Assembly: GCA_012845835.1 (NCBI GenBank)
Contig: JABAKD010000023.1
Span: 23,871,108 to 23,935,107 of the forward strand
Direction of reading: 5' to 3'
Length of the DNA: 64,000 bases
DNA from: Undaria pinnatifida
Taxonomy: Eukaryota > Sar > Phaeophyceae > Laminariales > Alariaceae
Each line of letters begins with the position of its first letter. Position 1 is the first letter of the stretch. Positions 2,798-52,837 of the stretch are shown piece after piece. Below the pieces are notes generated by a model that ran no database searches, had not been told where the DNA came from, and worked only from the letters and a program-made list of their open reading frames with translations. A program made the position numbers and the translations under genes.

Positions 2798-3361
2798 CAG
2801 CACGTTCTTTATAGAACGTTAAGTTGTGGTTTATTGTACCAGCATCGTTTTTTGAGAACTATGCCTAAATGCGTGCTCTTCGTCTTTCAGGAATACAAAT
2901 GTACTTCACATGTTTGCGGTGTGTGCGTTCAAGTTCCTGCTTCCAGCATGTTTTTTTTGGCACTGCGCTCCTTTACATCTTAAGTTGTAGTTTTTCTGTC
3001 TCTATCCTTGACAAGCGCGTGCCTGGTGTTTATGCACTGCGATAATTATTGATGATCGACTTAGAGAGAGAGAGCTATTAATAAGTGTACAGGACCTAGG
3101 TGCTACCTGAGAGGTGGAAGGATATGCCAAGCAAGTCCTCCGACGTGCCCATCATGGATTGGGCGAATGGATGATAATAACAAACTCATAATCATAATCG
3201 TCTCTATCCTGTACCGTTGTACTATATATGGACCTCTTGGCATTTTCAAGTCGCCAGTTGCGCCATTTGTGCTTCTTTTCCGCCTTTCTACTGAATGTCT
3301 ATTCCTCCTTCCGCAAGCGTAGCGGGCGGCGCCCAGCCGCCCGCGGGCGAAGCCCTTGTAT
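2798..3361 (+). repeat. Conserved 3' flank of gene copy A ending in GC hairpin
   Basis: No gene seen. The stretch is shared with copy C (34006-33434, -) and copy D (53325-53843, +), and all three stop matching at the GC-rich hairpin followed by CCCTTGTA. This marks the edge of the duplicated segment. Confidence 0.7.
3308..3361 (+). repeat. GC-rich hairpin repeat
   Basis: GCGGGCGGC and GCCGCCCGC pair around a short loop, followed by GAAGCCCTTGTA. Relatives are at about 29876-29925, 33429-33485, 55225-55268 and, weaker, 26210-26257. Copy D at 53824-53843 lacks about 31 bp of the hairpin core but is otherwise the same. Confidence 0.7.
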
Positions 3362-4101
3362 AATTATAGGATCTGTGCCCGAAGTACACCTCCTGCCCGC
3401 ACACTCTGCTCGCAGAGCTAACACACGTAGCAGCACGTATCAGCACGTAGCGGCGGACCCGCAGTGGTTAACCCCAAGGCATCTACGGAGCTGAGAACCA
3501 CCAGCAGGATGGAGGCTGCTGCAAGTGCTGCTGCCAGTCTTGCGAGCTCGGCTTTTCCTTGCCGCCTTGCGAGACGGACGAAAAGAAAGCGGTGCACCGG
3601 TGACCTCCTCGCTAGGAACGGCGTGGAGTGCAGTCTCGGATGAAAGACATGCACCCACGACCTCGCTAGGCTTGACGTGGAATAACGAGGAGCCTATGGT
3701 GGTAGATGACCAGGCAGCTCCTTACAACGACAACTCAGCAGCAAGACGGTTGCAGATTCCCCGGCGCCGCTTATCAGAGGGCCGGCGGCACGATACTCTC
3801 AAAAGTAGTACAGGACGTAAAAATGGCAAGCTGATACTTCTAGAAAGACAAGAAATCCGGGAGCTAAAGGCAGTGCAGGTGACACCCTCTCCCATATTAT
3901 CGTTGTTGTTGTTCTCACATTAGCTCGCATAATCAAGTCCGTGGTCACAGGACAGGCTCCAGTCGCTCTGGAGCTGAGGAATACCCCAGGAAAAAACACA
4001 CACAACCTAACCAAGGTGGTACACGCATATATCACATCCGACGCAATTCATGCCTCCACCAGACACATAAAAAAAGTGAAATCGGGAGTCAGTCTACGAT
4101 G
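3362..4101 (+). other. Non-coding spacer with repeat shared at 24.8-25.0 kb
   Basis: No supported gene. Positions about 3910-4100 match 24990-24800 in reverse orientation (TCCGTGGTCACAGGAC, GTGAAATCGGGAGTCA and more), so this is a dispersed repeat broken by LTR copy 2. The open frame at 3525-3923 has no recognisable domain and no copy elsewhere. Confidence 0.5.
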
Positions 4102-4371
4102 TGTGAAATTAAAGGGTGGGGAACACAGAGTGCCCCCTGCAGGTCTGCCAATTGAGCAGGTCTTCGGAGAGTACTCACTTTCGTTCCTTCGTAGAGATGT
4201 AGCTTTATTCGTTTCCACCAGAGCCCGGGATAGCTTCCGAGATCAGAGGCGCGTGCCTCCGATCTAATTCCTAACTTCCCCGAATATAAACCGCCAACCT
4301 TATCATACGAAACCCATTCAAATGATCTCAAATTCGGATACCTACAGGCCTTTCGAGGCCGTATCTTAACA
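4102..4371 (-). repeat. 3' LTR of element 1
   Basis: About 270 bp with TG..CA ends, near-identical to the 19586-19849 and 1431-1699 copies. Upstream on the minus strand is a modest purine stretch (CAGGGTGGGC) that may be the polypurine tract. Confidence 0.8.
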
Positions 4372-5227
4372 CTAGCCCACCCTGATGAGTCGCATATGCA
4401 GAAATATGGGAGATTCGGGGAAACTCCGGTTCTACGAACTAGACCATGAGTCGAAGATGCGGCTCCTCAAACCCCACTCCCACACCTCTAACCGTCTGGC
4501 TATGGAGCCAGGAACACGCGAAGAAAAGCAGTAGAAAGAAAAGCATGCCCTACAGCAAGGCAATAGTCACCCATCAAAAACCTACCGCATGCCGCCGGGG
4601 TGGCGGGGGGGGCAGAAAAGGCTCTAGAACCTGCCGCATGCCGCCGGTGTGGCGGGGGGGGCAGGAAAGGCTCTGCGGTAAACCAACCACAGAAAAAGTA
4701 CTATGGCGAGGCGAGCCCTCGTCGATATGGAGGGGAACGCAGGCGCTAACACAAGGGAGAAGTCATGCGAAAAACCTCCCGCGGGCCATTGGCAAGGCGG
4801 GGGGTTAGACGAGGAAACGACGAATACCCGGGATGGAAGTTGTCAACACATACTGCCCCGCTAGGGGAGGAAGTATTTAGACAACAAAAAAAAACAAAGC
4901 AGAACGAATACAACACACAAAACATAAAAGAAGACACACAGACCCGTACACTGGTCGCCCCCCGGCTCTGGGCTGAGGAGGGCGTCGGCAGGGCGAATTT
5001 GAACTATGACAAAAAGACGGCAACCCTGCGCCTCAGAGAGCGGCGTTTTCCCCGAACCCTGACCCGGCACTGAGCAGGGGGTTCGGCAGGACAGAAAAAA
5101 AATGGAAAGAACCGCCCCAAAACTCGATGAGGACCCTCAGGACACTATGAACGACCCAAAGACAAAGACGCAAAACTCATACCTCAAAAAAATGAAGAAC
5201 TATCGAGAAGCGGTGGTGGCTTGGAAG
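4372..5227 (-). other. 3' non-coding region of element 1
   Basis: Lies between the end of the polyprotein and the 3' LTR, almost identical to 40023-40875 in element 2. It contains two copies of a roughly 49-bp unit (4581-4629 and 4630-4678) built on CCGCATGCCGCCGG and a G run. The first part (CTAGCCCACCCTGA, AGTCGAAGATGCGGCT) recurs diverged at 57288-57400. No gene seen. Confidence 0.65.
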
Positions 5228-6583
5228 TCAACTGGCCACGGCCGCGCCTCGAGATTCGTCTACGTTACGTTGGATTCCCCGAGGAAACGCACTGGCGATG
5301 TGAACTTGCAAGCACCAAGAGCCTCGTACGGCTCCCGTTGAAGTCGTGTAGCGCGCCGGGGGAAGAGGGAGTTTAATCGGTCCCGGGTCGTCCAGAAAGC
5401 GGACCAGGTATACCTTGTCCTCGGTAGTGCTCGCGCTGATTTTTCCTAGCCACCATAAACCATCGTCTCCCTTGTACCAAAAGTGGGCTCCCTTAGGAAG
5501 TATGGTGTCGTGGTAGCGACGGAGCCAATCGGTGCGGGAAACACAGGCGTAGCCCGGCGCTAGGAAACGTTCCCCGTTGTTGCGGGAGAGCTCACGCTGT
5601 GCCGCCCCGATCCGCATTCGGCGGTAAAGGCGGTTGGTTTGGCGGTGCTGGTCCGGGGTTCCGGCCCAATAACGCAAGATGTGGGAGCGGGAGAGGTGAA
5701 GGTCCATTTCCCGCTCCCAGGACGGTTCGGAGAGTCCCGCCCAATGCGTCTTGTATAGCACCGCGATGACGCCACCTCGCCCCCGTACCGACTGATGACC
5801 AGTGATCTGCTCCACCTCCAGCCGTTGGAGGGGAGTCGAAACGTCGTCTTGAGTGACGTGGTACGGCGGGGACTTCTTGGAAAATTTGTTGAGCACATAC
5901 TGTGTCAGCCCCGCCGGTAGGTATTTGGGCATGTCCCCGCTGTCGTGGGGGTTGGCACAGGGTTTGCAGCGCTCGATAGCCACACGCCGACGAGCGTCCG
6001 AACCAGGCAGGTCGGAAGGGAGATCCAAATAAAGGAGGTTGCGCCCGAGCGGCGAGCCGTCCGGGGTCTCGGCGGCGGAGCAGGGACCGACGGCCAGGAC
6101 CTTGTATGGGCCCGTCCAGTCAAGCGCGAGTTTGGCCTTGAGTACCTTGGCGTCGGTATTCGCTTTCACACCCTGGCGGATGGTAGAGGCAGAATTGTAT
6201 ACCCATGCCCAACCACCCACAGTGAAGTTAGGTGCTGGACGCAGCGCGTCGGCGAGGGCGGAGTTTCTGCGGTTAACACGGGAAACGGTGAGGGCGTGGT
6301 GTGCGCGGACAATGTCGTTCGCGCGCTTTTGCCGGTCGGTGGCCAAATCGCAATAGGCCAGGTGGTCACGGGCCAGACTCTGGTGTCCCACGACACCTTT
6401 GCGGTCGAAAATCGTCAGGGGGAGCCGTGGGAGTCTGCCCATGTGGACCTCGTTGGGCGCCAAACCCGTCGCCGCGCTGACAGAGTTGTTGTAAGCGAAT
6501 TCGACGTGGGGCAGATGCAAGTCCCCCCTCAACGCCCCCGTTACAGTTGGGATGGTAGGAGCTTGTAGCAAGCTTGTGTACAC
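5228..6583 (-). pseudogene. Integrase C-terminal region: GPY/F module, chromodomain, Tudor-like tail
   Basis: Continuation of integrase after a frame-breaking deletion near 6523; the nominal start is not a real start. In this frame, about residues 21-45 are the end of the integrase core (LHLPHVEF, YNNSVSAATGLAPNEV). Residues 120-165 form the GPY/F module (VGGWAWVY, WTGPYKV). Residues 254-308 are a chromodomain (LEVEQI, LYKTHWAGLSEPSWE, HILRYWAG). Residues about 371-418 read like a Tudor/SH3-like barrel (HFWYKGDDGLWWLGKI, VYLVRFLDD). In known chromoviruses the chromodomain guides integration to marked chromatin. The second barrel-like module is my inference. Element 2 has the same region about 97% identical (41631-40876). 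Confidence 0.8.
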
Positions 6584-8702
6584 CTAACAGCTGATATACA
6601 GCTTGTGAAAGCTTGGAGCAGAACTGCAGTCCGTTGTCCGAGAGTATGGTGCGCGGGCACCCCCACAAGGGGATGTATTGGTTCACCAGGATATTGGCTG
6701 TACCTTCCGCGGTGAACTCAGCGGCAGTGACGGGGAACATGTCGGCCCGACGACTGAAGCGATCGGTGAACAGCAGGATGTAGGTGTTGCCTCGCGGTGT
6801 GACCGGAAGGGGGCCGAAGTAGTCAACACTGACGGCGATACCTGGACCTTCCGGCAGAGGCATTGTGATGATGGGCCAGCGGACAGTCAGCCGTGGGGTT
6901 TTTCGCGCTTGGCACTTCAAGCAGTGGCGAAGCCACCACCGGGTACACACACTCATGCCAATCCACCAATAAAAACGCTCCAGCATGCGCAACGTGCGCG
7001 TGGTGCCAAGGTGGCAGGAGGCCGTCGAGTGGCAAGCTTGCATGATCCCAGGGCGCATGAGCAGGGGAACGTAGATGCGAACTGGCTCGTTGTTTAGCAA
7101 GCAAGCAGCTCGCCCCACAGAGTTCGGTTTGTCAGAGCTTGTTTGCGGGAGTGTCGGTTTACGGACGAGCAGGACAAAGTCGTCGTCGGTTGTATGTAGT
7201 CGACCCTTATCCGCCAGTTCCTGGATGTCTGAGAGAGAGGGACGCTTGGGCGAGGGGTAGCATGCCAAGAAGTCCGGTGGCAGGGCCGACGGCCGGCCGA
7301 TAGAGATGTAACGTATCGTGGCGTGGCACGTCGGCTCTGCGTGTTGTTCGCGCTTCCAATCAGCATGTGAATAACGCGCGACGGAATCCGCGAATCGCAA
7401 CTCAGCAGCGTCGCCGAGGGCATCCGACCTTGTAAGTGTAGCCGGCGTTTCACCAGGAGAAGGCGTAAGCCGTAGGAGCGGAGTTCCCATAGGCTCTGCG
7501 TGGTCGTGGTCGGACGGAAGTGGTACCGTGCGGGCCGGCGGGTCGGCAAGAGTAGGGGTCGCGGCGACTGACGGAGCCGGCCGCGGCCGTCGGGCTCGCG
7601 GCGGAGTTGTAGCTCGTCTGGGCGATGACTGGGGAACCCCGCCGGGCCCAAAGCCATAGTCGACAGCAGGGGGTGCCTTACCAGCTGCTGTTGCTGAACG
7701 CCGGCGCGTCCGAGTGGAGATGCGGTCCGAAAAGGGCGTCATCGTCTGGGGCGCCGGAGATCCAGGCGAGGTTGGGACGGGCGCGGTCGGGCCCCTGGGC
7801 TCGACGGGGTTTGTCCCTTGTACCGAGCTCCGGGAAGGAGTCGGTTGGGCCACTGATGTCGTGGCAGCCGGGGCTTCGGCGGAGTCCTCGTTGGTCACGA
7901 TGGGTACAGCAAAAACCGAAGCGAAATTGTAGTCGGCTGTACGCGAGCCCCCGCCTCGGCCGGGCGAGCTATCGACGGTGGCGGTGGATGCAGAAACACG
8001 AGCGACGAATCTCCTGGAAGGAGCAGGAAGGTCGTCAAGCCTCATACGTGGACCGTGTGTGCGAAAATCGCAAAAGTCGGCAAGAGTGAGAGGAAGCCCA
8101 CCCAAGGCATTACTTTCGGTGCGGGGCATTAGCCCACCCAAGCCGACACCCGGTATCGGAGAAGAAGGAGTGTACAGCCCGCAAGTCCGTATGAGGTATA
8201 TACCACCATCCTCAACAGGGGTAAGGCTCGTCGAACCATTGCGGTCGTGTTCCGTGGCAGGCTCCGGCAAGCGAGACAGGAAGTCGGCGTTGCCATTTGC
8301 GCTTCCTTTTCGGTATTCGAGGGTGTAATCGAATGCGGTGAGGAACTCGAGCCATCTCTGGACTCGGCCGTTGTGATTCCCCACTTTGCCTATGTTTTCC
8401 AGAGCCTTGTGGTCTGAGAATATTCGGAACTTGGTGCCCCAAAGGTAGCCGCGGAGGCGCTTGAGAGCCCAGACGATGCTGCCAGCCTCTAAATCGAGAG
8501 GAGTCCAATGCCTTTCCGAGTCGAGCGTAGCTCGGCTGATGTATGCGATGGGTTTTATGGAGCCGTCCGTCTGCTCCTGTTCGAGAACGGCTCCGAACCC
8601 GTCGATCCAGGCATCGCAGTACACATGGAACGGGCGAGTGCCGTCGGCGACGGCGTCCCAATCAGGGAAAACGAGGACCGGCGGGGTCGTGAGCTCCGCC
8701 AA
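6366..8702 (-). pseudogene. RNase H, disordered linker and integrase core (pol part 2)
   Basis: The frame joins RT by a 1-nt shift near 8708. RNase H spans about residues 26-145 with acidic residues D30 (YCDAWIDG), E72 (LEAGSIVW), D97 (FSDHKAL) and D140 (GNADFLSR). Residues 150-490 are a Pro/Ser/Thr-rich linker with LGGL motifs. Integrase follows: HHCC zinc finger (H558, H564, C594, C597), then catalytic D627 (VDYFGPL), D689 (LSDNGLQF) and E725 (NGGVE), a DD35E spacing. Right after E725 the frame is lost: against element 2 about 59 bp net is missing (near 6523), and the tail downstream of E725 here is out-of-frame sequence. The catalytic triad itself is intact. Confidence 0.85.
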
Positions 8703-11449
8703 GATTTTCTCTCCAACTTCTCCATAGCAGGCGTGAAAGCAAACTTTACCCCCTTCCGAAGGAGTGCGTTAATAGGACGAAGTCTCTTCGATAAGTCGGG
8801 CAAACATTTGCGGTAATAGTTGATACCACCCATGAGTGCGCGCACCTGCTTAACGTCAGTGGGCATCGGCATATTGGTCAATGCCGACACTTTTTCCGAA
8901 TTTGGGCGTAGGTCTGCTGGAGAAATGGAGTGGCCTAGAAAGTTCGCATCGGTAGCGCCCAAACGCGCCTTCGAGGGGGAAAGCTTGAGATTGTGCTTTC
9001 GAAGGCGTTCGAAGAGAGAGCGAATCGTCCGAACATGCGTTACCGGGTCGGAGTCGAACACGATGACATCGTCGAGGTAAGCTGCCACCTGTGTCAAACC
9101 CTTGATCACCTCATTGATAACCTTGACGAACCACCCAGGCGAGGCGCCGCTGCCCTGGGGCATAACGAGCCACTCATAAAGGCCCGTGGGTGTGCAGAAC
9201 GCTGTAAGGGGAACTGTGTCCTTGTGTGCCGTTATCTGGTGGAACGAGGAAACCAAGTCGAACAGGGAAAACACCCGACCTGAGCCCAAGGAGTCCAGGA
9301 CCTGGTCCACGCGCGGAATCGGCAGTTGACTGAGCTTGCTAATTTGGTTGAGCTTCTTGTAGTTCACCGTGATCCTCACACCGCCAGATTTCTTCGGGAT
9401 GACCACCAGCGGGCTCGAGTACGGTGAGGTCGAGTGCTGAATCAGCCCAGCCGCGAGGTACTGGTTAAGGGTCGCGTCCACTTCTCTGGCCAGTATAGGG
9501 TTTATGCGATGGGGCCGTGAAGTGACCGGAGCGCTGCCCTCCGGAACCGAGATTTCAAAGGGCATTAGGGAGCATGACCCAAAGTCCGTCTTCGAGGTGG
9601 AGAACACGTCAGAAAAGTCGCAGAGCACATCCCCCAGTTGCTCAATGGTCGGGGGGTCCCAACCAGGGTCGTGTAAGTCGAACGCAATCTCCCGCAGGTG
9701 CGGTGGGAGTCGGGCCCAGACGCGTAGAAATGCAGAACGTTGGACCGGGTTCAAACGTTCCACAAGCGTCGGCGAGGGCGACGGTACGGCGGGAACTATC
9801 TCCTCCGCGCCGGTCGGGCTCGCGACCGCAGAGACCTGGCTGTCCGAAGTCTGGCCAGGGTGGGGACCCGCAGCCTCGATAGGGTGTTGCAAGGCACCCA
9901 GCGGGATGCGCAAAAGTGGGGCGTCGGCGACCCCGATAAGGTCGCCTGGCTCGAGGTCCGCGACACCTATGACGGGAAGCACCTGTCGTCCTGAAGAAAC
10001 AAAGTGTTTCTGTCCCGAAATAACATCCGGCTGCGGCAGTATGTCGACAAGATAGTGTCCTGTGAGCGCAGGAAAGCCATTACTGCGCACCAAGTTGACC
10101 TCGAGCAGTTGGGGCTCGTCCGACAAAGTGACGCCTGTAGAGCCATCATAGCGAAGATGGAAAGCACCGTTCGATGCTGCGGGGTCGACGGCATAAGCCG
10201 CTACGCCTGCTGTGGCGTGGTGGGACAACGTCAGTTCGCCCAAAACCCGATTATCGAGAGGACGAGGGGGCAGGGCGCGGTACGAACGGGTGTTGAAGCG
10301 CATCCAACTGTCGCGGCCCAGCAAGACAGCGTGCTGCATGACCGAAGGAGGGACCACGCATGCCCACACCGCGAGAGAGCATGTTAGTTCTTTTTTTAGG
10401 AAGAATTGAACGCTCAGACGGATGTGGGTCGCGGTCCGTGAAGGGGCGGATTCGCCAAAGCCACCCCAGGAGCGAGGGCTGCTAGGCCGCTCGCACGTCG
10501 ATGAGGCGGCGCCTACCGATAGCATACGATCCAACACGTCACGACGGATGAAGGTTTGGGGGGAGCCAGTGTCAAGCAGCGCTGTACATATGTAGGGCGC
10601 AATACCGTCCCCTCCGCTATGTATTGCAATATCGGTAGTGAAAGAATCGTCGTCCAGCGTCACGGTACCCCCAACGAGGCAGGGGCCATGTTCTGGCAGT
10701 GCGCGGTCTGAGGCGCCGCGAGAAGCTACCGCCAAACCCTCCGGGCTTTGATCGGCGGGTGTACCCGAAAAATAGGCCGAAGGAGGGCCTTGGGCAGCGC
10801 CGACCGCGGTCCCCAAGCGCGACTGCTGAGCGGACGAAATTTCATGGATTCCAGCATTCCCAGTGGGCCTGCGGAATCGACGAGGGGAGGCCGGGTGTGG
10901 CGATCCGTCCTCGTAGTCGCGAATTGCTTCGCGAACGGCAGAGAGTGCCTCACCGAGCAAATTTTTTCCTCTCCACTTGTGTGGATCCTTGGCGTGGGGG
11001 TCGTCCGCCCGGAGACCAATACCCCACACAATGTCTAGAGGACTGGCCTCTGCCAGAAATTTGTTGCCAGTGCTCAAAAGGTGATTTTTCATGGCTGGGT
11101 TCTGCGTAAATTTGGCATAGTTGCCAGATAACACGGCATTTTGCTTCTCCCTGTCCCAAACGGCGGCGTCAAAATTGCGCACACCTCGACCGACGCGTTT
11201 GTGTGTGCTGGGGTCAGACGATGACATGATGAACTCCACTGCGCGATGGTCTTTAAAAAGCCGAGCCTTTTCAGCCATCATAAACTGCTCCGCGCAAGAA
11301 TATGAGACGTCGTCGACGACAAACGACGAAGGAGACCACTGCGAGAAAAAAGACGGCGGTTGCCAGAACAACACTACTTTGTCTGTAGAGTATTCGAGGG
11401 AAGGGTCGAAAGTCGACGGTGCCAACCCGTCGGAGGCCGTGTTAGGCAT
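8555..11449 (-). CDS. NADAR domain, aspartic protease and reverse transcriptase (pol part 1)
   Basis: 964 codons. Residues about 27-178 are a NADAR (YbiA/DUF1768-like) domain: FFSQWSP (34-40), YSCAEQFMMAEKARLF (50-65), VGRGVRNFD with W98, ASPLDIVWGIGL (135-146), W159 and GKNLLGEALSAVR (161-173). Residues 293-296 are protease DTGS (LLDTGSPQTF). RT covers about 640-850 with SSPLVVIPKKSGG, FDLVSSFHQ, VMPQG and catalytic YLDD at 791-794. After about residue 123 of the tail the frame is wrong: one G appears to be missing in TTGGAGAGAAAATC at about 8708-8722, and the RNase H frame follows. NADAR proteins act on ADP-ribose/NAD-related bonds; its role here is unknown. The frame is continuous with the linker and gag except for single stops. 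Confidence 0.85.
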   Translation of the reverse strand: MPNTASDGLAPSTFDPSLEYSTDKVVLFWQPPSFFSQWSPSSFVVDDVSYSCAEQFMMAEKARLFKDHRAVEFIMSSSDPSTHKRVGRGVRNFDAAVWDREKQNAVLSGNYAKFTQNPAMKNHLLSTGNKFLAEASPLDIVWGIGLRADDPHAKDPHKWRGKNLLGEALSAVREAIRDYEDGSPHPASPRRFRRPTGNAGIHEISSAQQSRLGTAVGAAQGPPSAYFSGTPADQSPEGLAVASRGASDRALPEHGPCLVGGTVTLDDDSFTTDIAIHSGGDGIAPYICTALLDTGSPQTFIRRDVLDRMLSVGAASSTCERPSSPRSWGGFGESAPSRTATHIRLSVQFFLKKELTCSLAVWACVVPPSVMQHAVLLGRDSWMRFNTRSYRALPPRPLDNRVLGELTLSHHATAGVAAYAVDPAASNGAFHLRYDGSTGVTLSDEPQLLEVNLVRSNGFPALTGHYLVDILPQPDVISGQKHFVSSGRQVLPVIGVADLEPGDLIGVADAPLLRIPLGALQHPIEAAGPHPGQTSDSQVSAVASPTGAEEIVPAVPSPSPTLVERLNPVQRSAFLRVWARLPPHLREIAFDLHDPGWDPPTIEQLGDVLCDFSDVFSTSKTDFGSCSLMPFEISVPEGSAPVTSRPHRINPILAREVDATLNQYLAAGLIQHSTSPYSSPLVVIPKKSGGVRITVNYKKLNQISKLSQLPIPRVDQVLDSLGSGRVFSLFDLVSSFHQITAHKDTVPLTAFCTPTGLYEWLVMPQGSGASPGWFVKVINEVIKGLTQVAAYLDDVIVFDSDPVTHVRTIRSLFERLRKHNLKLSPSKARLGATDANFLGHSISPADLRPNSEKVSALTNMPMPTDVKQVRALMGGINYYRKCLPDLSKRLRPINALLRKGVKFAFTPAMEKLERKSWRSSRPRRSSFSLIGTPSPTALARSMCTAMPGSTGSEPFSNRSRRTAP

Positions 11450-11485
11450 ATGAGCTTGTAATGTCCCCGTCTGGGGACACCAGTC

Positions 11486-12589
11486 TCAGGCACTTTGGGC
11501 CTGCAGCGTCCCCGTCCGAGAACGCCCGGCCTCGGGAGCACGGCGCGAGCCCGAACCCACGGGTGGTCGCGTCGTGGCCTTGTCGCTCTTTGGCGTAAAA
11601 TCGCAAGGAACTGCTCTCACTGCACCCGAAGGGACAGGGGGCTCGGAGCTGTTACTGCTTGACGAGAGGCGCGATTCTTCCGTATCTTCACGGGAATAGC
11701 GTCCAGCTGATCGGGCTGGAGGCCGTGGCGTCACCACTGGCCCGTTGCGCAGTGTCGGATCTATATCCTGTGCCACTGGGGCAGACGTAGCCTGATGCAC
11801 GTGGGTTAGCGTGCTTAAAGACGGAGCAGGGCCCGTAGACCCTGTGGGCGTCTTCGAGAGCGGGGCTCGGGCAAGTGGAAATAAGTTCTTCGCCCGAGGG
11901 GGCTCCTTCCCGTTAGCGCTCTTGGAGGAGAGAGACGAGGTAGCTAAGCTTGTCGGCTCCTCCTTGATGAGAAAAAGGATAGAGCGCCCGCTACTATCGC
12001 GAGGAGACACCGGATCAAATCTTGGAAAGGATCTCGGTGCATATGGGTTGGCTTTCCCACACCTCAAACCAACGGCCGCTCTACGGTCAGGAAGAGGTGG
12101 AGGCGATCCCGCTCCCGTATGGGGGCGACGCGTCGTCGCCGCAGTCTTCTTGTTGCGCGACGCGTGCCTGGGGGGAGCGTGCAAGGTGCAGGCTCCCGAG
12201 TCATGGTTGAGGGGGGCAGCGTTAGGGGCGCGTGCCTCCGTTGTCGAGCTTAAGCCTCGGCAGGGGTTAACGGCGTCGGAAGCGCTGGTCCCCATTGCCG
12301 AACTCGGACCATGATCGAGGGGGGCGTCGCTGTGGGCGCACACCCCCTTCGTAGAAAATGTAACCTGGCTCGGGGGGGGCATGCTGGGAGCCCTGGTCCC
12401 CACCGCCGGCGCTGCGGCGTGAAAGTCATCAGGCGACGTAGGAGCCCGTGGGCTCTTGACAAAAACAAATTGTGCCGCGCCACGTGTAAGGCGAACGACA
12501 GGCACTCGAGCATCTTGTGAAAGCAAAGGAAGTGTTCCCGACAGTGCCGTCGGCGTACGGGTCGGGTGTGCCGTACCGGCGTCGCCCTG
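11486..12589 (-). CDS. Disordered Pro/Ser-rich linker between gag and pol
   Basis: About 367 codons open in the same frame as gag and pol, with no ATG at its head. It is bounded by one TAA (12592-12590) after gag and one TGA (11488-11486) before the NADAR frame. Composition is Pro/Ser/Ala/Arg with no folded domain that I recognise. In element 2 both boundary stops are sense codons (CGA and GAG), so linker and neighbours were probably one polyprotein, or made by readthrough. It is not a separate gene. Confidence 0.6.
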   Translation of the reverse strand, partial: QGDAGTAHPTRTPTALSGTLPLLSQDARVPVVRLTRGAAQFVFVKSPRAPTSPDDFHAAAPAVGTRAPSMPPPSQVTFSTKGVCAHSDAPLDHGPSSAMGTSASDAVNPCRGLSSTTEARAPNAAPLNHDSGACTLHAPPRHASRNKKTAATTRRPHTGAGSPPPLPDRRAAVGLRCGKANPYAPRSFPRFDPVSPRDSSGRSILFLIKEEPTSLATSSLSSKSANGKEPPRAKNLFPLARAPLSKTPTGSTGPAPSLSTLTHVHQATSAPVAQDIDPTLRNGPVVTPRPPARSAGRYSREDTEESRLSSSSNSSEPPVPSGAVRAVPCDFTPKSDKATTRPPVGSGSRRAPEAGRSRTGTLQAQSA

Positions 12590-15541
12590 TTAGTTGCCAG
12601 TGCGAAAGGTACCTGGTTGGCGCGCGTTGGGGTTTCCGCTCGAATTGTGGGTTGCCCCGAAACGCTTCCCCGGAGCAGACACGGAAGCCGAGGAGGCTGG
12701 CGAGGGCGGGACAGCACCATGTTGGCCAGGCGTGTATGTGCTGTTGTTGTTACCGCTGTGGCTGTTTGTCTGTCCCTGGTCCCGTGGGTACCCTCGTGAT
12801 TGGTTTGAACGATTTCGGCGACTTTTGTTGTACGTTTGCGAGCGAGAAGACCGCCCGTCGCGGCGGTAGCTAACCATACGTGCTTGCCACCGTCGGAAAA
12901 CGTCATCATCGCCAAGTTGGCCAAGTTCAGGGTTTAGACAGCCGCTGGCGTTGATAAAGGGATGCCTACAGTTGCGTAAGGAATGAGTGTCTTCGTGACA
13001 GTTGAGGCAATGACCCCTGTTTTCTCGGAGAGCCGCGGCGCGGGCAGAGGGCGTGAGGAGGCCGCTCCAGAGGGGAGGGTCGTCGGTCTTAAACGAGGCA
13101 CTAACAGCGAAAACTTCTGCATAGTGTTGTTCTTCTAGGGGCCAGCAGTTGGACATTTTGTCGAGCGAGGGGTCGGTGGAAGCAACAATCGGCATGCCAA
13201 TCGGATTATTGCTCGAACCCGTCTGCCAAGAAGGCGACTGGGACAGCACTCGGCCCTGGCCGCGCCCATGAACGGCGGGCCAGGGCCCCGACGGGGCGGA
13301 TGACCGCGATCCCGTCGAAGAAACAGGTAGAGAAAAATGTTTTTCGCCGTTGACGGCAGGTGTCTTATTGTGCGCCAAGTCACTGAACGCTTTCCACATG
13401 GCATCTAACGAGGCGTATGGCCGTGGGTCCGTAGCCTTCGAGCCAGGGTATAACGTAGGCATGAGCGTCGGAAACTGCTCGTTGACCGCCATCCTAACTA
13501 CCTCCAGCACGACATCCGTCCCCGGGGACAAAACACGCTCACTCCCCGTGACTGCCGATACTAGCACACGGAACTCCCGACTGAAATCAGAAAAAGGCGT
13601 GCCGTTACACACTCCAAAAGTGTGCAACTTAGTGTAGCCTTCGCCCGTGTCGACCCGGTCAAAGTGCGTCACGAGCAGGCGTAGCAGGAGGGTGAAAGCC
13701 TCGGGCCCAGATGCTCCTCCGTCCAACGCTCTTGACACCTGTCCAAAACAATCGTCGATCAAGGTGGTCATGCGAGCGGTCGTGGGCCTGTCAGGTGTTA
13801 TGGCACGGTTGAATGCCAGGCGGAGGGGGCGGATCCAACCGGGAACCCACGTGGGGGCACGTACACCCTCTTGGCAACGGTCGTCACAGCGCATGAGTAT
13901 GTCAGTCATGGCAGACCGAACCGAACGTGTGAGTTGCTGTGTGCCGTCAGACTTGTTCAAAGAGGCGGGGAACGGTAGCACAGAAATGCGTGATACGTCC
14001 TTGTGGGAGAGCTTAACATAGGCGCGCCTAACCGAGTCATCGAGCGTGGATTTAGCTAGAGCCGCGGCGGTAGCAAGTTCGGCGGTACGCTCGCGAGCCA
14101 AATCCGAAGAAACAGGCTTGGTGTGGTCACCCGACACAGTTAGTTCGCTCAGCCGGTCGGCGGACGAGGCAATATCCACCAGGGAAGGAGTTACTTGCCT
14201 CCTGCCAGCTACCACGGTCACCTCGCCGTGGTCCGTGTTCGAGCTCGAAGACGAGCGGGAGGACGTTGACGACTCGTCCCACGCTGAGGGCCCTCGTGTG
14301 CTGTTTCGCCGTCCTCCGGTGCCTCCTCCCGAGCTGCGACCGCCGCCCCGGTTGGTTCGGGCCTGGTTGCTCCCTTGGCGGCGCTGTGGGCCACCACCCG
14401 TACCCGACGCTCCTCCCGCGCTTCCGCCACCGTTGCCACCACCGCGGCGGTTGTGGTGGCCACCACTCCCACCGTTTTCCCCGTTTCCCCCACTCTGGCC
14501 GCCACCACCCCCGGAGTTGCCACCTCCACGGTTGCGGTCCCCCCGATCACGGCTGCCACCGCGCCGCTGTTTGGTGGAGCGCCTTCCTTCCAGCGCTTCC
14601 TTTGGAGTCAGCCACAGCACTGGGTCAGGGGCGTCGTCGTGGGCCAATCTTAAGGCTTTGACCAAAGCGAGGGTAGGTGCTCGCCTCATCTTCCCGAAGG
14701 CGGACGAGTTGTCCCGGCGAGCCCAGCCTGCTCCGACCGAAAGGTCTTCCGCCTTGAACGACGACCGTCGCTCTGAAGATAGAAGGGCCTTGGCCGCTGC
14801 TATCACCGCCTCCGCCAGATGCGCCGAGAACTCGACCCTCGGCGTGGTAGCCATGTACTGGACGCTGCCAGACATGAAAACGTCGTCCCCGGGTCGTGTA
14901 TCTTGGGAGGCAACACTCAGCGGGCGCGCCGAGAAAGGGGCAGCTCTCGCCGGAGTCGATGTAGCTGAGAGGGCAACGGCTTGGCGTGCCCTCTCGAACG
15001 CGCGGGATGCCTCACGAGCAGCGGCCCTCGCCTGGTCGATGGCGTGATCCTCACGGCGTCGACGTTCGTCATCTAGCCGTTTGCGTTCCTCTCGTCGAAG
15101 CAGGGTCGCGTTGGCTTCGTCGAGAGCTCTTTGGGCCCGAGAAATTTCAGACTCTGAGTCTGAGGGGCCAGCATGGGAGCGCTGGTCTCCGTAGCTCTGG
15201 GGAAGGCGCTCTGTCGAGCGCGGAGAGGTCAGATGTCGACGGTGGTGCTCTGAGGACAGCTGGAGATGCTCCCTCGAGGCTGGGGATATTTGTCGTCGTG
15301 ATGTCTCCGCGCCCGGTAGGAGTTTTTCCGCCTCGTCGACCGGCGAGTCGGGGTGGTCAGACGGTGTGCCGTGTTGTTGACTCGTGTTGGAGTCACTATC
15401 GTCGTCCAGGTTTTCGGCGCGTCCTCCTCGTCTCGATTCGCGGGACCTCGAGCGTTCCCGTCCTTCTCCCTGGGCCTCCTGGATGGGGCGCGTGGAGGAC
15501 CGCAGCCTGCCCGAGTAGCCCCCATCGTCACTGGTGGACAT
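12590..15541 (-). CDS. gag: Gag polyprotein of element 1
   Basis: 983 codons from the ATG at 15541 (MSTSDD). This start is chosen because element 2 begins at the matching ATG (MSTSEE, 49139). N-terminal Ser/Arg-rich segment (RSRSRESRRGG), then a charged helical, coiled-coil-like stretch (DNA about 15150-14960, ERKRLDDERRRRE), a Gly-rich RNA-binding-like region (about 14560-14210), a capsid-like middle, and a CCHC zinc knuckle (CLNCHEDTHSLRNC, C-X2-C-X4-H-X4-C, 13009-12968). The C-terminus is Ser/Asn/Gly-rich. It packages element RNA by analogy with known Ty3/gypsy Gag. It ends in TAA followed by CAG, with the same frame open beyond. Codons look GC-rich against the AT-richer flanks. Confidence 0.85.
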   Translation of the reverse strand: MSTSDDGGYSGRLRSSTRPIQEAQGEGRERSRSRESRRGGRAENLDDDSDSNTSQQHGTPSDHPDSPVDEAEKLLPGAETSRRQISPASREHLQLSSEHHRRHLTSPRSTERLPQSYGDQRSHAGPSDSESEISRAQRALDEANATLLRREERKRLDDERRRREDHAIDQARAAAREASRAFERARQAVALSATSTPARAAPFSARPLSVASQDTRPGDDVFMSGSVQYMATTPRVEFSAHLAEAVIAAAKALLSSERRSSFKAEDLSVGAGWARRDNSSAFGKMRRAPTLALVKALRLAHDDAPDPVLWLTPKEALEGRRSTKQRRGGSRDRGDRNRGGGNSGGGGGQSGGNGENGGSGGHHNRRGGGNGGGSAGGASGTGGGPQRRQGSNQARTNRGGGRSSGGGTGGRRNSTRGPSAWDESSTSSRSSSSSNTDHGEVTVVAGRRQVTPSLVDIASSADRLSELTVSGDHTKPVSSDLARERTAELATAAALAKSTLDDSVRRAYVKLSHKDVSRISVLPFPASLNKSDGTQQLTRSVRSAMTDILMRCDDRCQEGVRAPTWVPGWIRPLRLAFNRAITPDRPTTARMTTLIDDCFGQVSRALDGGASGPEAFTLLLRLLVTHFDRVDTGEGYTKLHTFGVCNGTPFSDFSREFRVLVSAVTGSERVLSPGTDVVLEVVRMAVNEQFPTLMPTLYPGSKATDPRPYASLDAMWKAFSDLAHNKTPAVNGEKHFSLPVSSTGSRSSAPSGPWPAVHGRGQGRVLSQSPSWQTGSSNNPIGMPIVASTDPSLDKMSNCWPLEEQHYAEVFAVSASFKTDDPPLWSGLLTPSARAAALRENRGHCLNCHEDTHSLRNCRHPFINASGCLNPELGQLGDDDVFRRWQARMVSYRRDGRSSRSQTYNKSRRNRSNQSRGYPRDQGQTNSHSGNNNSTYTPGQHGAVPPSPASSASVSAPGKRFGATHNSSGNPNARQPGTFRTGN

Positions 15542-15949
15542 GGTGCCTAGGTGTAGTGAAGGGGGGGGGATAGGAACGACGCGTGAAGAAGCTATGGAGA
15601 CAGATAAATTGTTGTGGTGTTCCTGCTCCAAGGAGCGGTATATCTGTGTTTCAGCAAACAGCAACAATATGGGCCTTAACGCCGTCCAGCCTCAGTGATG
15701 GTAGCAGCCACGTCAACTAGCCGTATAAGAGGAGTACAGCAGTAACAAGGTACCAATCATCATAACCGACACATAAGAGCAGCGCCCAGTCTGACCGTAC
15801 GGTATATGGGTAACGCCCGCACGAACCGCAGTACAAGGAGCCAAAACTGGGCAGCACTGACCCTAACCGCAGTGCAGGGGGTGCAACACAGTAAGGGTAC
15901 GTCTGCAGCCATCGCACTTAAACAGGCAGCATTCAACCTAGGCGGGGGG

Positions 15950-17560
15950 AGGTAGCACAGGAAAGCGCCCAAAACGCCCACGCTCATCGGACCAAAACAG
16001 GCAGCATTTACCCTAGGTCTAGTGTAGGGGTTATCACAGTAAAGGTTCGCCCAACACGCCGACGCTCATCGCACCAAAACGGGCAGCATTTACCCTGGGT
16101 GTAGTGTAGGGGGGGAGCACAGTGAAGGGTCGCCCAACACGCTGACACTCATTGCACCAAAACGGGCAGCATTTAACCTAGGTCTAGTGTGAGGGTGGAA
16201 GCACAGTGTAAGATCGCCCAACACGCTGACACTCATCGCACCAAAACGGGCAGCATTTGCCCTAGGTGTAGTGCAGGGGGGGAGCACAGTGAAAGGTCAC
16301 CCAACACGCTGACACTCATTGCACCAAAACGGGCAGCATTTACCCTAGGTGTAGTGTGAGGGTGGAAGCACAGTGTAAGATCGCCCAACACGCTGACACT
16401 CATCGCACCAAAACAGGCAGCATTTTCCCTAGTTGTAGTGTAGGGGGGGAGCACAGTGAAAAGTCACCCACACGCTGACACTCATTGCACCAAAACAGGC
16501 AGCATTTACCCTAAGTGTAGTGTAGGGGGGGAGCACAGTGAAAGGTCACCCAACACACTGACACTCGTCGCACCAAAACAGGCAGCATTTAACCTAGGTG
16601 TAATGTAGGGGTGGAAGCACAGTGTAAGATCGCCCAACACGCTGACACTCATCGCACCAAAACGGGCAGCTTTTGCCCTAGGTGTAGTGTGGGGGGAAGC
16701 ACAGTGAAAGGTCACCCAACACGCTGACACTCATTGCACCAAAACAGGCAGCATTTACACTAGGTGTAGTGTAGAGGGGGAGCACAATGTAAGATCGCCC
16801 AACACGCTGACACTCATCGCACCAAAACGGGCAGCATTTACCCTACGTGTAGTGTAGGGGGAGAGCACAGTGAAGGGTCAACCAACACGCTGACACTCGT
16901 CGCACCAAAACAGGCAGCATTTAACCTAGGTGTAGTGTAGGGGTGGAAGCACAGTGTAAGATCGCCCAACACGCTGACACTCATCGCACCAAAACGGGCA
17001 GCATTTACCCTGGGTGTAGTGTAGGGGGGGAGCACAGTGAAAGGTCACCCAACACGCTGACACTCGTCGCACCAAAACAGGCAGCATTTACCCTAGGTGT
17101 AGTGTAGGGGTGGAAGCACAGTGTAAGATCGCCCAACACGCTGACACTCATCGCACCCAAACGGGCAGCATTTACCCTGGGTGTAGTGCAGGGGGGGAGC
17201 ACAGTGAAAGGTCACCCAACACGCTGACACTCGTCGCACCAAAATAGGCAGCATTTACCCTAGGTGTAGTGTAGGGGTGGAAGCACAGTGTAAGATCGCC
17301 CAACACGCTGACACTCATCGCACCAAATCGGGCAGCTTTTGCCTTAGGTGTAGTGCAGGGGGGGAGCACAGTGAAAGGTCACCCACACGCTGACACTCAT
17401 TGCACCAAAACAGGCAGCATTTACCCTAGGTGTAGTGTAGGGGGGGAGCACAGTGAAAGGTCACCCAACACGCTGACACTCGTCGCACCAAAACGGGCAG
17501 CATTTACCCTAGGTGCAGTGTAGGGGGGGAGCACAGTGAAGGATCGCGCAGCCAACCGTA
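15950..17560 (-). repeat. 83-bp satellite array in leader of element 1
   Basis: About 19 tandem units of 83-84 bp containing AACACGCTGACACTCATCGC, CCAAAACGGGCAGCATTTAC and CTAGGTGTAGTGTAGGGG. Two variants alternate (GTGTAAGATCGCCC against GTGAAAGGTCACCC), giving a 167-bp dimer period, most regular at 16838-17370. Degenerate units extend the edges to about 15780 and 17740. The equivalent array in element 2 is at 49560-50760. Confidence 0.9.
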
Positions 17561-18261
17561 TAAAAATGGGCAGCATCTGCCCCCACAGCAGTAGTGTGGT
17601 GGGGGGTAGGACAGTATACGTTCGCGTATCAACCGTATATAAAAAACGGGCAGTATAACCCCCCCAAACAAAGTAGTTTCCCCCGACCGCACTGAAGGGG
17701 GACGGTCGCGCCTGCAGTAGTGCTGATTGCTGCAGTATCACTGCTGTGTTCACAGGTAACGGTAATTTCAACCGCACCAAGATGGGTAGTGTAGTGCCAA
17801 CACCAGCTGTAGAAAAATGTGCACGCCCACAGTCGAATAGAAAGGCTGTTTGCCCCCAAAGGTACCGCATCAAACGGGCTGTTCTCCACTGCACTAGTAA
17901 AAACTGTGAAGCGCAGTATCTCCGCGAACTGTGTAGTAAGCGCTCTGTAACGGGCAGTAGCTGTCCGAACATGTGCAGAGAAGAAGAAAAATATTTTCCA
18001 GCGTAGACCCTAGCAATATCGTGAAGGGCAGCACATGTACGGGCAGGAAGACGGCCTAACGCCCGGACAGCTGAAAAAAAAATCCGTACCCACTCCCACC
18101 GATAAAGGGACAGTTACGTTGACAGCAGTGCGGAGTGCCGCACGGTCACAGCTGTGCATACACAGAAAGTGGTATTATAGTCCCCGCGTACCCATGAATG
18201 GGAGAATATAGGGCATCGCACACACCAACAGCCTTGCCCAAAAAGCCAGCACAGAGTTTCA

Positions 18262-18320
18262 GCGTTCACTAGGTTCAAGTTCTAGTCACGGAGGGGCCAG
18301 GACGAAAAAAAAAAAACTCT
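18262..18320 (+). other. tRNA-T-arm-like sequence with A tract
   Basis: CTAGG-TTCAAGT-TCTAG can form a T-arm and matches a Pol III B box, followed by GGGGCCAGGACG and an A run. It is conserved in element 2 near 51565-51615. No A box or cloverleaf was found. It could be a SINE tail trapped in the leader. Confidence 0.25.
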
Positions 18321-19585
18321 CGAATCGAACTTGCAAGGAGCACTCGCACAGCAGTGGGGGGTGTCAGAGCTGCGGTGCTGTAACTGTGGACGCTGGGGCA
18401 GTGAAGGGTCGAGCTATGTGGTGTATGAGCAGGAGCAAAGTAGGCGGCTTGGCTGCTGTACAGTGACTTCTACAGCAGAGAATCCGGCGGTATATGGCAG
18501 GCATTGACAGCGAGCCCATTGTGCTGCACTGTAGTTGGCACCTCTGCAAAAATGATGGTGGTTGAAGCTACGCGACGGACAGCAGTAGTGGAACGCTGTT
18601 GATCGAGAAAGATCGGAGAGGGGTCCGAGGTGCCAAATTCGTAGCTTGTACTAATTTCGGCAGAAAGGGGGCACAAGGGCAGCTGCTTGTTCGACGCACA
18701 AGAATGATCGACGTATGTACTGAAACCCATACGATAACGCGTGTACTGAAAAATTCGCCAAACGAAAAAGCCCAAACATTCCACGAGCACCGCCTGTTTC
18801 TTCCCAGGTAGATCACAAGGAAGGAGCGCCGACATGAGCTCCTAGAGCACGGTGCCCGTAGTCCAAGGGGGTCCCGCGAAGGACGGTCTGGCACCGACAG
18901 CAAGGATGTGCTGGGCGATGGGATCTCTCAGCGAGCGAAGTCCCCTTCGAATGTCATTCGAAGGGTTGATTCCAGTATGCTTGTCCGTGGCATGCGTGCA
19001 TATGCCTCCGAGCCCCAAAGCGCGAAAAAAAAGTACGAGTCGATGGCCGATCTTGGGGCTTGTGCTGGCAACTCGCGGATATGTGCTGTGCAACATGCTG
19101 GCAGAGCGCGGAGCAAACAAGTCTGATGGGTGGGGCTCGGGCAGTTCCACTGCGGAGTGGTCTATGACCAGCTGGCGGTGAACTGATGCGGCCAAAGGCC
19201 GGGACGAGGGGTGTGCTCCGAAGAGCAGTGTCGTCCGCCCGTACTCGGAAAGTGTCCTCTGTGTGGTGCGTGCCCAGCAACCAACAGGAGGGACCAAAAT
19301 TCGAGACGAGGAGTGTGCTCCGCAGAGCAGAGTCGTCCGCACGTACGTGGAAGGTGTCGTCCGTGTGGTACGTGCGCGGCGACCAACAGGAGGGGCCCCT
19401 GCCATCTCACTGCTGTTGTGGTCGCCGTTGTAGGAGGAAGGGCGCTCCCTCCATTGAGAAGCCACCCGAGAAGGAACAGGGGTTGTGGGCTCGATGGAAA
19501 GCAAAAGCAAAATCGCTACGAAAAAATAATCGGAGAAACCAAAAGAACGCTGCCACAATAGCACATCAAGCTCGACGACGCCACA

Positions 19586-19849
19586 TGTGAAATTAAAGGT
19601 GGGGGACACAGAGTGCCCCCTGCAGGTCTGACAATTGAGCAGGTCCTCGGAGAGTACTCACTTTCGTTCCTTCGATGTAGCTTTATTCGTTTCCACCAGA
19701 GCCCGGGATAGCTTCTGAGATCGGAGGTGCGTGCCTCCGATCTAATTCCTAACTTCCCCGAATATAAACCGCCAACCTTATCATACGAAACCCATTCAAA
19801 TGATCTCAAATTCGGATACCTACAGGCCTTTCAAGGCCGTATCTTAACA
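19586..19849 (-). repeat. 5' LTR of element 1
   Basis: 264 bp with TG..CA ends. On the minus strand the PBS-like TGGCGTCGTCGA follows after TG. On the other side it abuts the terminal coding segment of gene copy B without a target duplication. Confidence 0.8.
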
Positions 19850-30623: not shown

Positions 30624-31208
30624 TCATCGGCCCTCACGCTGCAACACCGCCGGTGTTGCACCCCCTGCCGACAAGTGCGTTGCGCCTCCAATCCTCAGGG
30701 AGTGCAAGGCGTACTCCTCCGCACGCACACCCGCCAACGCAACCACTTTCCGCAAAGCTACCGTCGCTTGATGTTGTGTCCACATGGACCATCTGCCATT
30801 ACCAACGACACACGCAACCAAGGGGGCCGAAGAGGGAAGAAACAAGTAACAAGACATCAATTCGATCATTAGATCGACGGCGCCGCCACCTTCCCCCACG
30901 CGCATCGACGGACCCTTTCGCACATGCGTGACAACCGCCCCTTTCCGCGGTTGGTCACCCTGCGGCCCGCGGAATCGAACCTTGACATGATCCGCGGTTG
31001 ACCACTGCGCAACAGTAAGCTGAATATTTCCGCAAAAGAATGCAACATCAGCACGCCGCAAACAATAAGTCTCGTGAACTCGTAACCGGGTTTCCGCGAA
31101 CATTTCTGACGCGCGAGTCAAGAGACAGAACGAAGCGCACAGGGCCGGCCACAAAACACGACCCCCGGCACGCCACGTGGGGATCAGCTTCTCGCCCGCG
31201 AGCAGCAT
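30624..31208 (-). pseudogene. Tyrosine recombinase of DIRS-like element
   Basis: About 195 codons. The first catalytic Arg region is LLTRASEMF and the HxxR box is LHSLRIGGATHLSAGGA. The frame ends in TGA right after LQREGR, where DIRS-type recombinases usually continue with Trp, and no active-site Tyr is seen after it. The protein is therefore truncated before the nucleophile. DIRS recombinases insert circular cDNA. Confidence in the family is good because the RNase H lies just upstream. Confidence 0.65.
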
Positions 31209-31792
31209 ATCCCACGGACCGCACGCATATGAACGAGGACGGAAGCGCGATCCCAGTGTGAGATACCGTCCGCGGCAACGTTAAAAATACCCCCTACGTG
31301 TTTCGCGTCGAAGTGCCAACCAGAGGACAATTTGAGCACACCAAGGAGGCGCATCAACGCGCCCGATCTCGGCTCCTTCCCGCCTCGACAACGCCGCACC
31401 CACTCTACGGCTGCTTCGTTGTCGCCACGCCACAACACACAGTCCCACGCGGCCGGGCGCTCGGCGCACGGAGATACGACGACCCAAGGGGAGACGACCA
31501 TACCTAGCAGTTCGAGGACGTTAATCTATATATCGGTCTCGCCTGCAACTGACTTGCTCGACCCGCAAAATCGAGATCGTTCCCCGGCGTCAATATCGTA
31601 TCTCCAGTACACCCCAGTTTCAAGGCAGAAACCCCCGACACCGGTTTTGGATGCACCCGAAAACGGAGTACGTTGGGAGGGGCGCTCAAGCAAATGATAC
31701 ATCGGAGCCGACAAGGTTCTTCCGCGCGCGTCCAATCCCTCCTCAATAAACCATCGCCAAAACTCGAGGTTCCCTTGAAACTCGGGTCCCAA
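31184..31792 (-). pseudogene. RNase H domain of DIRS-like element
   Basis: Split over two frames. The first (31792-31526) has EFQGNLEFWRWFIEEGL and SKTGVGGFCLETG, with Gly where the first catalytic Asp is expected. The second (31501-31184) has LWRGDNEAAVEWV, HFDAKHVGGIFNVAADG and IS. The pattern DN..., H....N..AD is typical of DIRS/BEL-like RNase H. A frameshift near 31510 and the Asp change indicate decay. Confidence 0.6.
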
Positions 31793-32336: not shown

Positions 32337-32718
32337 GAACTTAAACTAGCCTTAAACTAGAACTTAAACTAGTCTGTATCACACCTTGGACCTGTAAGCT
32401 CTGACTCTGCTCCCCTACGCGCTCCGCGTGCAGGTCGTCGCCTACACGGCTGGGCCAGGTGTGCCCAATGCTATCGCTCATACGACTATGAATTACCGCA
32501 TTGATCTGATTGGTCAAACTTCTTACGTACGTACAAAACCCATATTTTCTCATACTTCGATAATATTCTGCATGAGAAGATTCAGACATGAGACTTGGTA
32601 CGTAAACGACGGCAAACGTTTGTTCAAGCTGGATAGCGCACTTGCTACAGCTGTTCGTTGCTCTCCTCCTCACGCACTAATAATATCCTACCATAGGATC
32701 TAAGGCTCGGTCGCGGAA

Positions 32719-44192: not shown

Positions 44193-44249
44193 TGCTCTCC
44201 TATGTCTTGTGGCCGGAGGATATGCGGAACTTTGTTCCCCTCAGTATCC

Positions 44250-45196
44250 TCAGAGGCGTTTGGGAACCCAAGCAATGCTGCCGGTCCCCAAATCTAGAGG
44301 AGTCCAGTGCCTCTCCGAGTCGAGCGTTGCTCGACTGATATACGCGATTTTCATAGTGAACAAAACGCCGTCCAGCGTCACAGTACCCTCGACGAAGCAG
44401 GGGCAGTGTTCTGACATCGCAAGGTCAGGGCCGACGCTAGAAGCTATCTCCACAACTTCACGGCTTTTCATTGGCCAACGCGCCCGAGAAATAGGTCGGA
44501 AACGCCGAAGGGGAAGCTTTGCGAGCGCTGGCCGCTGTTAACGGTCCGGTTGCGGCGCGGACGAGATTTCTTGGTTCTTGCACTCGCAGTGCAGGTGCGG
44601 AACCGACTAGGGGAGGCCGGGTGCGCCGGCCCGGTCTCATTGTCGCAAATAGCTGCGCGAACGGCAGAAAGTGCCTCACCGAGCAAGTTTTTCCTCTCCC
44701 CTGGCATAGGTTGTTGGCCCTGGGACCATCCGCCCGGAGACCAATGCCCCACACTGGGTTCAGGGGGTCGGATTCAGCCAGAAGCTTGTTGTCAGAGCTC
44801 AAAAGGTGATTTTTTTATGGCTGGATTCTGCGTGAATTTGGCGTAGGTGCCAGGTGACACGGCGTTTTGTTTCTCCCTGTCCCCAACAGCGGAGTCAAAG
44901 TTGCGCACGCCTCGACCGATGCGTTTGCGTGTGCTTGGACGAGGCGACGACATGATGAGCCCCACTGCTCGATGGTTTTGCAAAAATTTGGTCTTTTCGG
45001 CCATCATGTACTGCTCCGCGCAAGAATATGGTACGTCGTCCACGGCAAACGACGAAGGGGACCACGGTGGAAAATAGGATGGGGGCTGCCAGAATAACAC
45101 CACTTTGGCTGTGGAGTATTCGAGAGAGGGGTCAAAAGCCGTGTTGAAATTTGGGCTGCAATGTCCCCGTCCGGGAACACCAGGCCTCGGGAGCAC
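44250..45196 (-). pseudogene. NADAR remnant and PR/RT deletion junction of element 2
   Basis: 45130-44792 encodes the first half of NADAR (VLFWQPPSYF, YSCAEQYMMAEK, VGDREKQNAV, FTQNP). The second half (LLAESDPLNPVWGIGLRADG, GKNLLGEALSAVRAAI) lies in two other frames at 44802-44630, so small indels have broken it. Then VEGTVTLDG jumps directly to AYISRATLDSERHW of RNase H near 44360, removing about 2.1 kb (protease, RT, start of RNase H). Confidence 0.75.
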
Positions 45197-52833: not shown

Positions 52834-52837
52834 CATG

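Follow-up and report, generated by a model that had tools for sequence, protein, structure and literature searches.

A Ty3/gypsy-lineage LTR retrotransposon of Undaria pinnatifida carries a NADAR (YbiA-type) domain inside its pol frame, and this domain has diverged under purifying selection at a strength like that on the C-terminal part of gag, as judged from one pair of copies of which one is decayed. The two copies lie in a single stretch of 64,000 nucleotides, the whole of which was analysed and is called the window here; positions are those of the window, and its features are collected in Table 1.

Architecture of the element

The better preserved element, copy 1, spans 4102-19849 (15.7 kb) on the minus strand and encloses the NADAR-bearing pol, the order along that strand being 5′ LTR, repeat leader, gag, linker ORF, NADAR, DTG motif, reverse transcriptase (RT), RNase H, integrase and a sub-threshold chromodomain. 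The pol ORF occupies 8555-11449 on the minus strand and encodes 964 amino acids from an ATG at 11449. The LTR pair of copy 1 is 95% identical, and inspection by eye of the sequence bordering the pair on its outer sides found no matching short repeat that would represent a target-site duplication. Old or recombinant copies of LTR elements can be without such a duplication. With LTRs, a CCHC knuckle, the order protease-RT-RNase H-integrase and an RT whose best PDB match is Ty3 (E = 4.9e-49), the features of Ty3/gypsy elements (Metaviridae) are present, the protease by motif only, and the element is a Ty3/gypsy-lineage LTR retrotransposon, in agreement with the earlier note, which had set the NADAR domain within a pol of this type.

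Table 1. Features of the two element copies in the window
Feature	Position	Strand	Basis
3′ LTR, 270 bp (copy 1)	4102..4371	-	257/270 aligned positions identical to 5′ LTR
Possible chromodomain 3′ of integrase	5687..5818	-	Pfam Chromo, sub-threshold
Integrase, zinc-binding and core domains	6549..7070	-	Integrase_H2C2 E = 8.9e-13, rve E = 8e-8
RNase H domain, other frame than RT	8331..8639	-	RT_RNaseH E = 3.1e-30
pol frame, stop to stop (NADAR, protease motif, RT)	8558..11485	-	ORF list
RT core RVT_1, residues 684-842, YLDD at residue 791	8924..9400	-	Pfam E = 2e-26
DTG motif, aspartic protease, residues 293-295	10565..10573	-	Motif; Pfam weak
NADAR (YbiA-type) domain, pol ORF residues 28-177	10919..11368	-	Pfam PF08719, AlphaFold model, PDB folds 8bau and 2b3w
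Linker ORF, 367 codons, frame common to gag and pol, one stop on each side	11489..12589	-	ORF frames
gag ORF, CCHC zinc knuckle at residues 887-900, first ATG 15541	12593..15667	-	ORF list, motif
83-bp tandem repeat, ~19 copies, leader between 5′ LTR and gag	15910..17547	.	Repeat count
5′ LTR, 264 bp (copy 1)	19586..19849	-	LTR pair alignment
NADAR remains in copy 2, with stops and a frameshift	44579..45142	-	Copy comparison

Two details of the earlier description go further than the sequence shows. The domain had been said to lie directly before the protease; the order holds, as the DTG motif is present, but the adjacency is loose, since DTG at residue 293 follows the NADAR domain by ~115 residues, and the best Pfam match to an aspartic protease was weak (Peptidase_A2B, E = 0.29, 11.1 bits versus a cut-off of 21.2). 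The label chromovirus is not supported: the Chromo match 3′ of the integrase stayed below threshold (E = 0.033, 14.6 bits versus a cut-off of 25.1) and was absent with a longer frame as query, and the chromodomain lineages of Ectocarpus, including one of like architecture, are described as unrelated to chromoviruses (PMC12477816). A single-sequence structure model of the integrase C-terminus was of low confidence (mean pLDDT 31.1), and the same region gave only a chance match to PDB sequences (E = 1.2).

In copy 1 the gag, linker and NADAR-RT frames share one reading frame and are divided by two stop codons. Because both of these stops are absent at the matching places in copy 2, itself broken elsewhere, the NADAR domain may sit inside one single Gag-Pol frame; the two stops of copy 1 may be marks of decay or may be regulated. 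Frame offsets in copy 1 place a change of frame between RT and RNase H and another within the integrase region, so that copy 1 as it stands is without an unbroken pol.

Copy 2, at about 39754-52830, is diverged and decayed, and it lacks a stretch matching about 8550-10635 of copy 1, with the result that the RT core and the DTG motif are gone. The ends of the two copies are 90-98% identical and the centre only 74-85%; because the ends are so much more alike than the centre, the two copies are closely related in some segments and distantly in others, a mosaic pattern that points to subfamilies having recombined or to template switching between them. The leader of copy 2 also holds an array of 83-84-bp repeats (~14 copies, about 49576-50766). 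Elsewhere in the window, a dispersed repeat adjoins the LTRs (1697-2568, 19847-20728, 34074-35024 and 52836-53834; ~94-98% identity among copies) and looks like nested insertions. A segment at 30627-32356 on the minus strand looks by eye like a fragment of a DIRS/Ngaro-like tyrosine-recombinase retroelement; its Pfam match to Phage_integrase was below the cut-off (E = 0.097), and a second piece tested gave no match.

Identity, fold and active site of the NADAR domain

The earlier note had given the domain as residues 27-178 of the pol frame, whose ORF starts at 11449, with 10916-11371 (minus strand) as its position; these coordinates are exact, and all four sequence blocks that it quoted as hallmarks are present. 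Over the pol ORF residues given in Table 1, the Pfam NADAR model PF08719 matched at E = 9.2e-50 (169.5 bits versus a cut-off of 35.1), and TIGR02464, the NCBIfam model for riboflavin biosynthesis intermediates N-glycosidase, matched at E = 6.9e-43 (146.5 bits versus 73.7). Between 10890 and 11449 on the minus strand the NADAR frame contains 0 stops, whereas the two remaining frames contain 5 and 6. A chance match is excluded.

When the first 186 pol residues were searched against PDB sequences, two sequences in total were returned at E ≤0.01, namely 8bau, the NADAR of Phytophthora nicotianae (E = 7.2e-15), and 2b3w, E. coli YbiA (E = 1.1e-4). An AlphaFold model of the domain was built on an alignment of 32 rows (A1: the window and 31 loci chosen from the 87 then fetched) and reached a pLDDT of 92.4. 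Foldseek comparison of this model with the PDB returned the same two structures (8bau, E = 3.3e-13; 2b3w, E = 2.6e-8) and no other match below E = 2, and a search of BFVD gave 57 matches at E ≤0.001 to phage, giant-virus and nidovirus proteins.

We then compared the domain with the 12 residues of P. nicotianae NADAR that are named in PMC11543638 as ADP-ribose contacts or as lying near the active site, assuming a shift of 2 between the numbering of the paper and that of the PDB chain, a shift that fits all 12 residue letters. Ten of the 12 are identical in the window domain, and the two that differ are D86 and R93 of P. nicotianae, replaced by A95 and K102. The residues E54, K61 and E134 of the window domain correspond to E43, K50 and E125 of the P. 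nicotianae protein and to E88, K95 and D171 of E. coli C7 NADAR, which are reported as required for guanine de-ADP-ribosylation or for DarT1 rescue (PMC11543638); the catalytic residues of a YbiA-family enzyme are thus kept, as the earlier note would have had it. According to PMC11543638 and PMC11125620, a glutamate on the last strand is typical of the YbiA subfamily and an aspartate of the BC4488 subfamily, and E134, which aligns with the P. nicotianae residue E125, is this last-strand glutamate and assigns the domain to the YbiA type. Together with E54 and K61, E134 belongs to a set of positions invariant in A1 that also includes K84, G87, W98, D139 and W142. We consider it likely that the domain is enzymatically active, either now or formerly in intact copies.

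Selection between the two copies

Substitutions between copy 1 and copy 2 were counted by the Nei-Gojobori codon method with our own script, and ranges were obtained by bootstrap. The NADAR core (172 codons, 2 skipped) gave dS 0.60, dN 0.15 and dN/dS 0.25 (0.14-0.43), while the same stretch read in the other two frames as a control gave 0.89 and 1.90, and two untranslated controls gave 0.58-0.94 over their frames. The C-terminal part of gag (361 codons, 20 skipped, 1 stop omitted) was close to the NADAR core at 0.26 (0.19-0.34), followed by RNase H together with the linker after it (456 codons, of which 23 were skipped; 4 stops) at 0.40 (0.29-0.51), an N-terminal part of gag (304 codons, 42 skipped, 1 stop) at 0.49 (0.36-0.67) and the stretch 3′ of NADAR (82 codons) at 0.61 (0.33-1.10). 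The integrase parts are very alike, with dS of 0.06 and 0.03 and dN/dS of 0.29 (0.11-0.75) and 0.78 (0.38-2.33), respectively. Within the linker ORF, the half that adjoins NADAR (184 codons, 8 skipped, 1 stop) gave 0.97 (0.59-1.69) and looks neutral. Since the decay of copy 2 should raise dN/dS, the constraint on NADAR is if anything understated by this one pair of copies.

These values bear on two readings in which the chemistry of the domain would be of no consequence. The fold might serve the polyprotein only for binding or as a spacer, its chemistry being irrelevant by now, a structural role with which the two differing residues among the 12 named ones would agree; we find it highly doubtful in view of the intact catalytic residues and the strong purifying selection. 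A recent one-off capture without a role would be compatible with the observation that both window copies are broken somewhere, but a dN/dS of 0.25 accumulated over a dS of ~0.6, the presence of a second, diverged copy in the window and a NADAR-bearing lineage reported in Ectocarpus (PMC12477816) make such a capture extremely improbable.

Relatives and origin of the domain

Prokaryotic relatives were taken as the best 80 of 105 loci in bacterial and archaeal genomes. Among the matches listed, the closest belong to Myxococcota, above all Nannocystis, with 54-60% identity in 6 loci, and Planctomycetota contribute a few loci, with 46-57% identity in 3; the closest viral relative is 53% identical (best 80 of 470 loci; 7 loci in a first scan). 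A tree of 88 rows, comprising the window and 87 bacterial, archaeal and viral loci with eukaryotic NADARs left out, groups the window domain with 14 Myxococcota/Planctomycetota rows (L008-L020 and L022) at a support of 98/82. A quick tree of 55 viral and 32 bacterial rows, in which duplicates and the remaining loci were left out, returned the same placement (SH-aLRT 86, unstarred). The window branch is long, and AU tests did not reject three other partners for the window: 6 viral rows (p 0.41), the 8 Nannocystis-like rows by themselves (p 0.35) and 62 rows on the Bacillota/Bacteroidota side (p 0.15). The domain was probably captured from a bacterium, with no donor fixed by trees that leave eukaryotic NADARs outside.

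The window NADAR is up to 60% identical to the YbiA proteins of Myxococcota and Planctomycetota, which are bacterial genes outside any element, whereas the window domain lies inside a retrotransposon pol. The likeness extends to the N-terminus, where FDGSQV.ET..VLFWQPP of several loci (e.g. L008, L010, L011, L014 and L017) resembles FDPSLEYSTDKVVLFWQPP of the window; in other A1 rows that extend this far, the part following FFW is either shorter or carries a longer insert, and several rows end before it. A tblastn search (E up to 1e-3) found no RT match in 163 NADAR loci with flanks of ≤3-4 kb, and the window RT as query found no relative in the viral contig collection; because the contig collections are viral and prokaryotic, the search for an RT fusion has no bearing on eukaryotes. 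Pfam annotation of four neighbouring ORFs at L008 and L009 only, 2 of the 13 rows labelled Myxococcota and hence no survey, found no ADP-ribosyltransferase; the neighbours at L008 are a short-chain dehydrogenase and a transposase, and those at L009 an acetyltransferase and a further NADAR gene. In the latter locus, from Nannocystis bainbridge, the two NADAR genes are adjacent (2218-2781 and 2827-3540), and one of them is close to the window domain.

Comparison with published NADAR elements and enzymes

In September 2025 a Gypsy lineage with a NADAR domain, Gypsy-12_Ec32, was described from Ectocarpus (PMC12477816), and the fusion of NADAR with a Gypsy element is therefore already known as a kind. 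By its published description, with which we noted no difference, Gypsy-12_Ec32 shares with the window element a Ty3/gypsy RT and a Pol that begins with a NADAR of the YbiA family; it has a putative chromodomain 3′ of the integrase, where the window element has its sub-threshold Chromo match, and the best matches of both NADARs are mostly bacterial. The same paper describes NADAR matches outside Ectocarpus as almost exclusively bacterial and reports a further NADAR in ORF1 of Tx1 LINEs of the Pacific oyster Crassostrea gigas. Among the papers listed by a literature search, judged by their titles and the beginnings of their abstracts, no further one dealt with a fusion of NADAR with a retrotransposon. 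The Ectocarpus gene Esi0017_0056 encodes a NADAR at residues 132-291 with mostly prokaryotic best matches (PMC7922944), the main text of that paper holding no words that start with 'transpos' or 'retrotransposon', and this NADAR may be akin to that of the elements considered here.

The enzymes of known structure, YbiA (2b3w) and Phytophthora NADAR (8bau), have their fold and catalytic residues in common with the window domain and stand outside retrotransposons, in contrast to the window domain with its place in a retrotransposon pol frame. In that respect the window element resembles nidoviruses and Tx1 LINEs, RNA-copying parasites in which one protein likewise includes a NADAR, the replicase polyprotein in the former and ORF1 in the latter. 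NADAR is embedded in the polyproteins of some positive-strand RNA viruses of animals, and a counter to host ADP-ribosylation has been proposed for them (PMC9503650); among the BFVD matches listed, large polyproteins of eukaryotic viruses are 16-23% identical to the window NADAR.

Possible function of the domain

Several kinds of NADAR remove ADP-ribose from guanine in DNA (PMC11543638, PMC11125620) and in RNA (PMC11833690). On this basis we hypothesized that the YbiA-family NADAR, encoded after the gag region and ahead of the protease, would be an active glycosyl hydrolase with the chemistry of known NADARs, that it would be made as part of Gag-Pol and would therefore enter the particle, a step suggested by its position, and that inside the particle it would remove ADP-ribose from guanine of the element RNA or cDNA, or act on a related ribosyl lesion, so clearing the template for reverse transcription. 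For a de-ADP-ribosylase speak the NADAR match, the active-site residues, E134, the model and its fold matches, dN/dS, the known chemistry of NADARs and the NADARs of viral polyproteins; against it stand a substrate that sequence does not fix, the two differing residues among the 12, the two stops between gag, linker and pol, the frame-broken pol of copy 1, and a dN/dS value taken from a single pair of copies. As to the substrate, the activity usually ascribed to NADARs of bacteria and plants is the clearing of reactive riboflavin intermediates (PMC11543638). We tentatively favour this account, in which an element of the Ty3/gypsy lineage with the architecture of the Ectocarpus NADAR-Gypsy has an active NADAR, made with Gag-Pol, that takes ADP-ribose off guanine in element RNA or cDNA, and give it a little less than an even chance.

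Two other substrates were weighed. The domain might instead do house-cleaning, hydrolysing not modified nucleic acid but damaged nucleotides and other ribosyl compounds that are damaged or reactive, such as riboflavin intermediates and derivatives of ADP-ribose. The dUTPases carried by some retroelements offer a comparison for such a role. It would fit the TIGR02464 match above cut-off and the YbiA-type glutamate, but a general metabolic activity would give a selfish element little reason to keep the domain, which is an argument and not data, and E. coli YbiA itself acts on ADP-ribosylated guanine too (PMC11125620, PMC11833690), so that we hold house-cleaning to be unlikely. The domain might also take part in RNA processing, with the transposition intermediate as its target at the ends or the cap, in keeping with the hypothesis of the Ectocarpus authors, who propose that NADAR processes the RNA intermediate of transposition (PMC12477816); the NADARs tested in PMC11833690 were inactive on RNA ADP-ribosylated at its phosphate ends, which renders this role decidedly improbable.

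The favoured de-ADP-ribosylation of guanine could be carried further, to a host that marks the RNA or cDNA of retroelements by ADP-ribosylation of guanine and a captured bacterial NADAR, packaged by the element, that removes the mark as a counter-defence, a possibility raised in the earlier note. In algae, no defence against retroelements by ADP-ribosylation of guanine is known to us, and none stood among the papers listed by our literature search, which also counts against the favoured account; such a counter-defence appears distinctly unlikely.

The NADAR fusion itself being published, what is added here is the purifying selection on NADAR, which resembles that on the C-terminal part of gag. 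Such selection, together with an intact active site, makes a direct enzyme test worthwhile, and it would be cheap. To our knowledge no nucleic-acid ADP-ribosylation system has been described in the host lineage, and activity of the domain on ADP-ribosylated nucleic acid would point to one. If the counter-defence were true, a eukaryote and the LTR retrotransposons that it harbours would be engaged in an arms race over ADP-ribosylation for which we know of no precedent.
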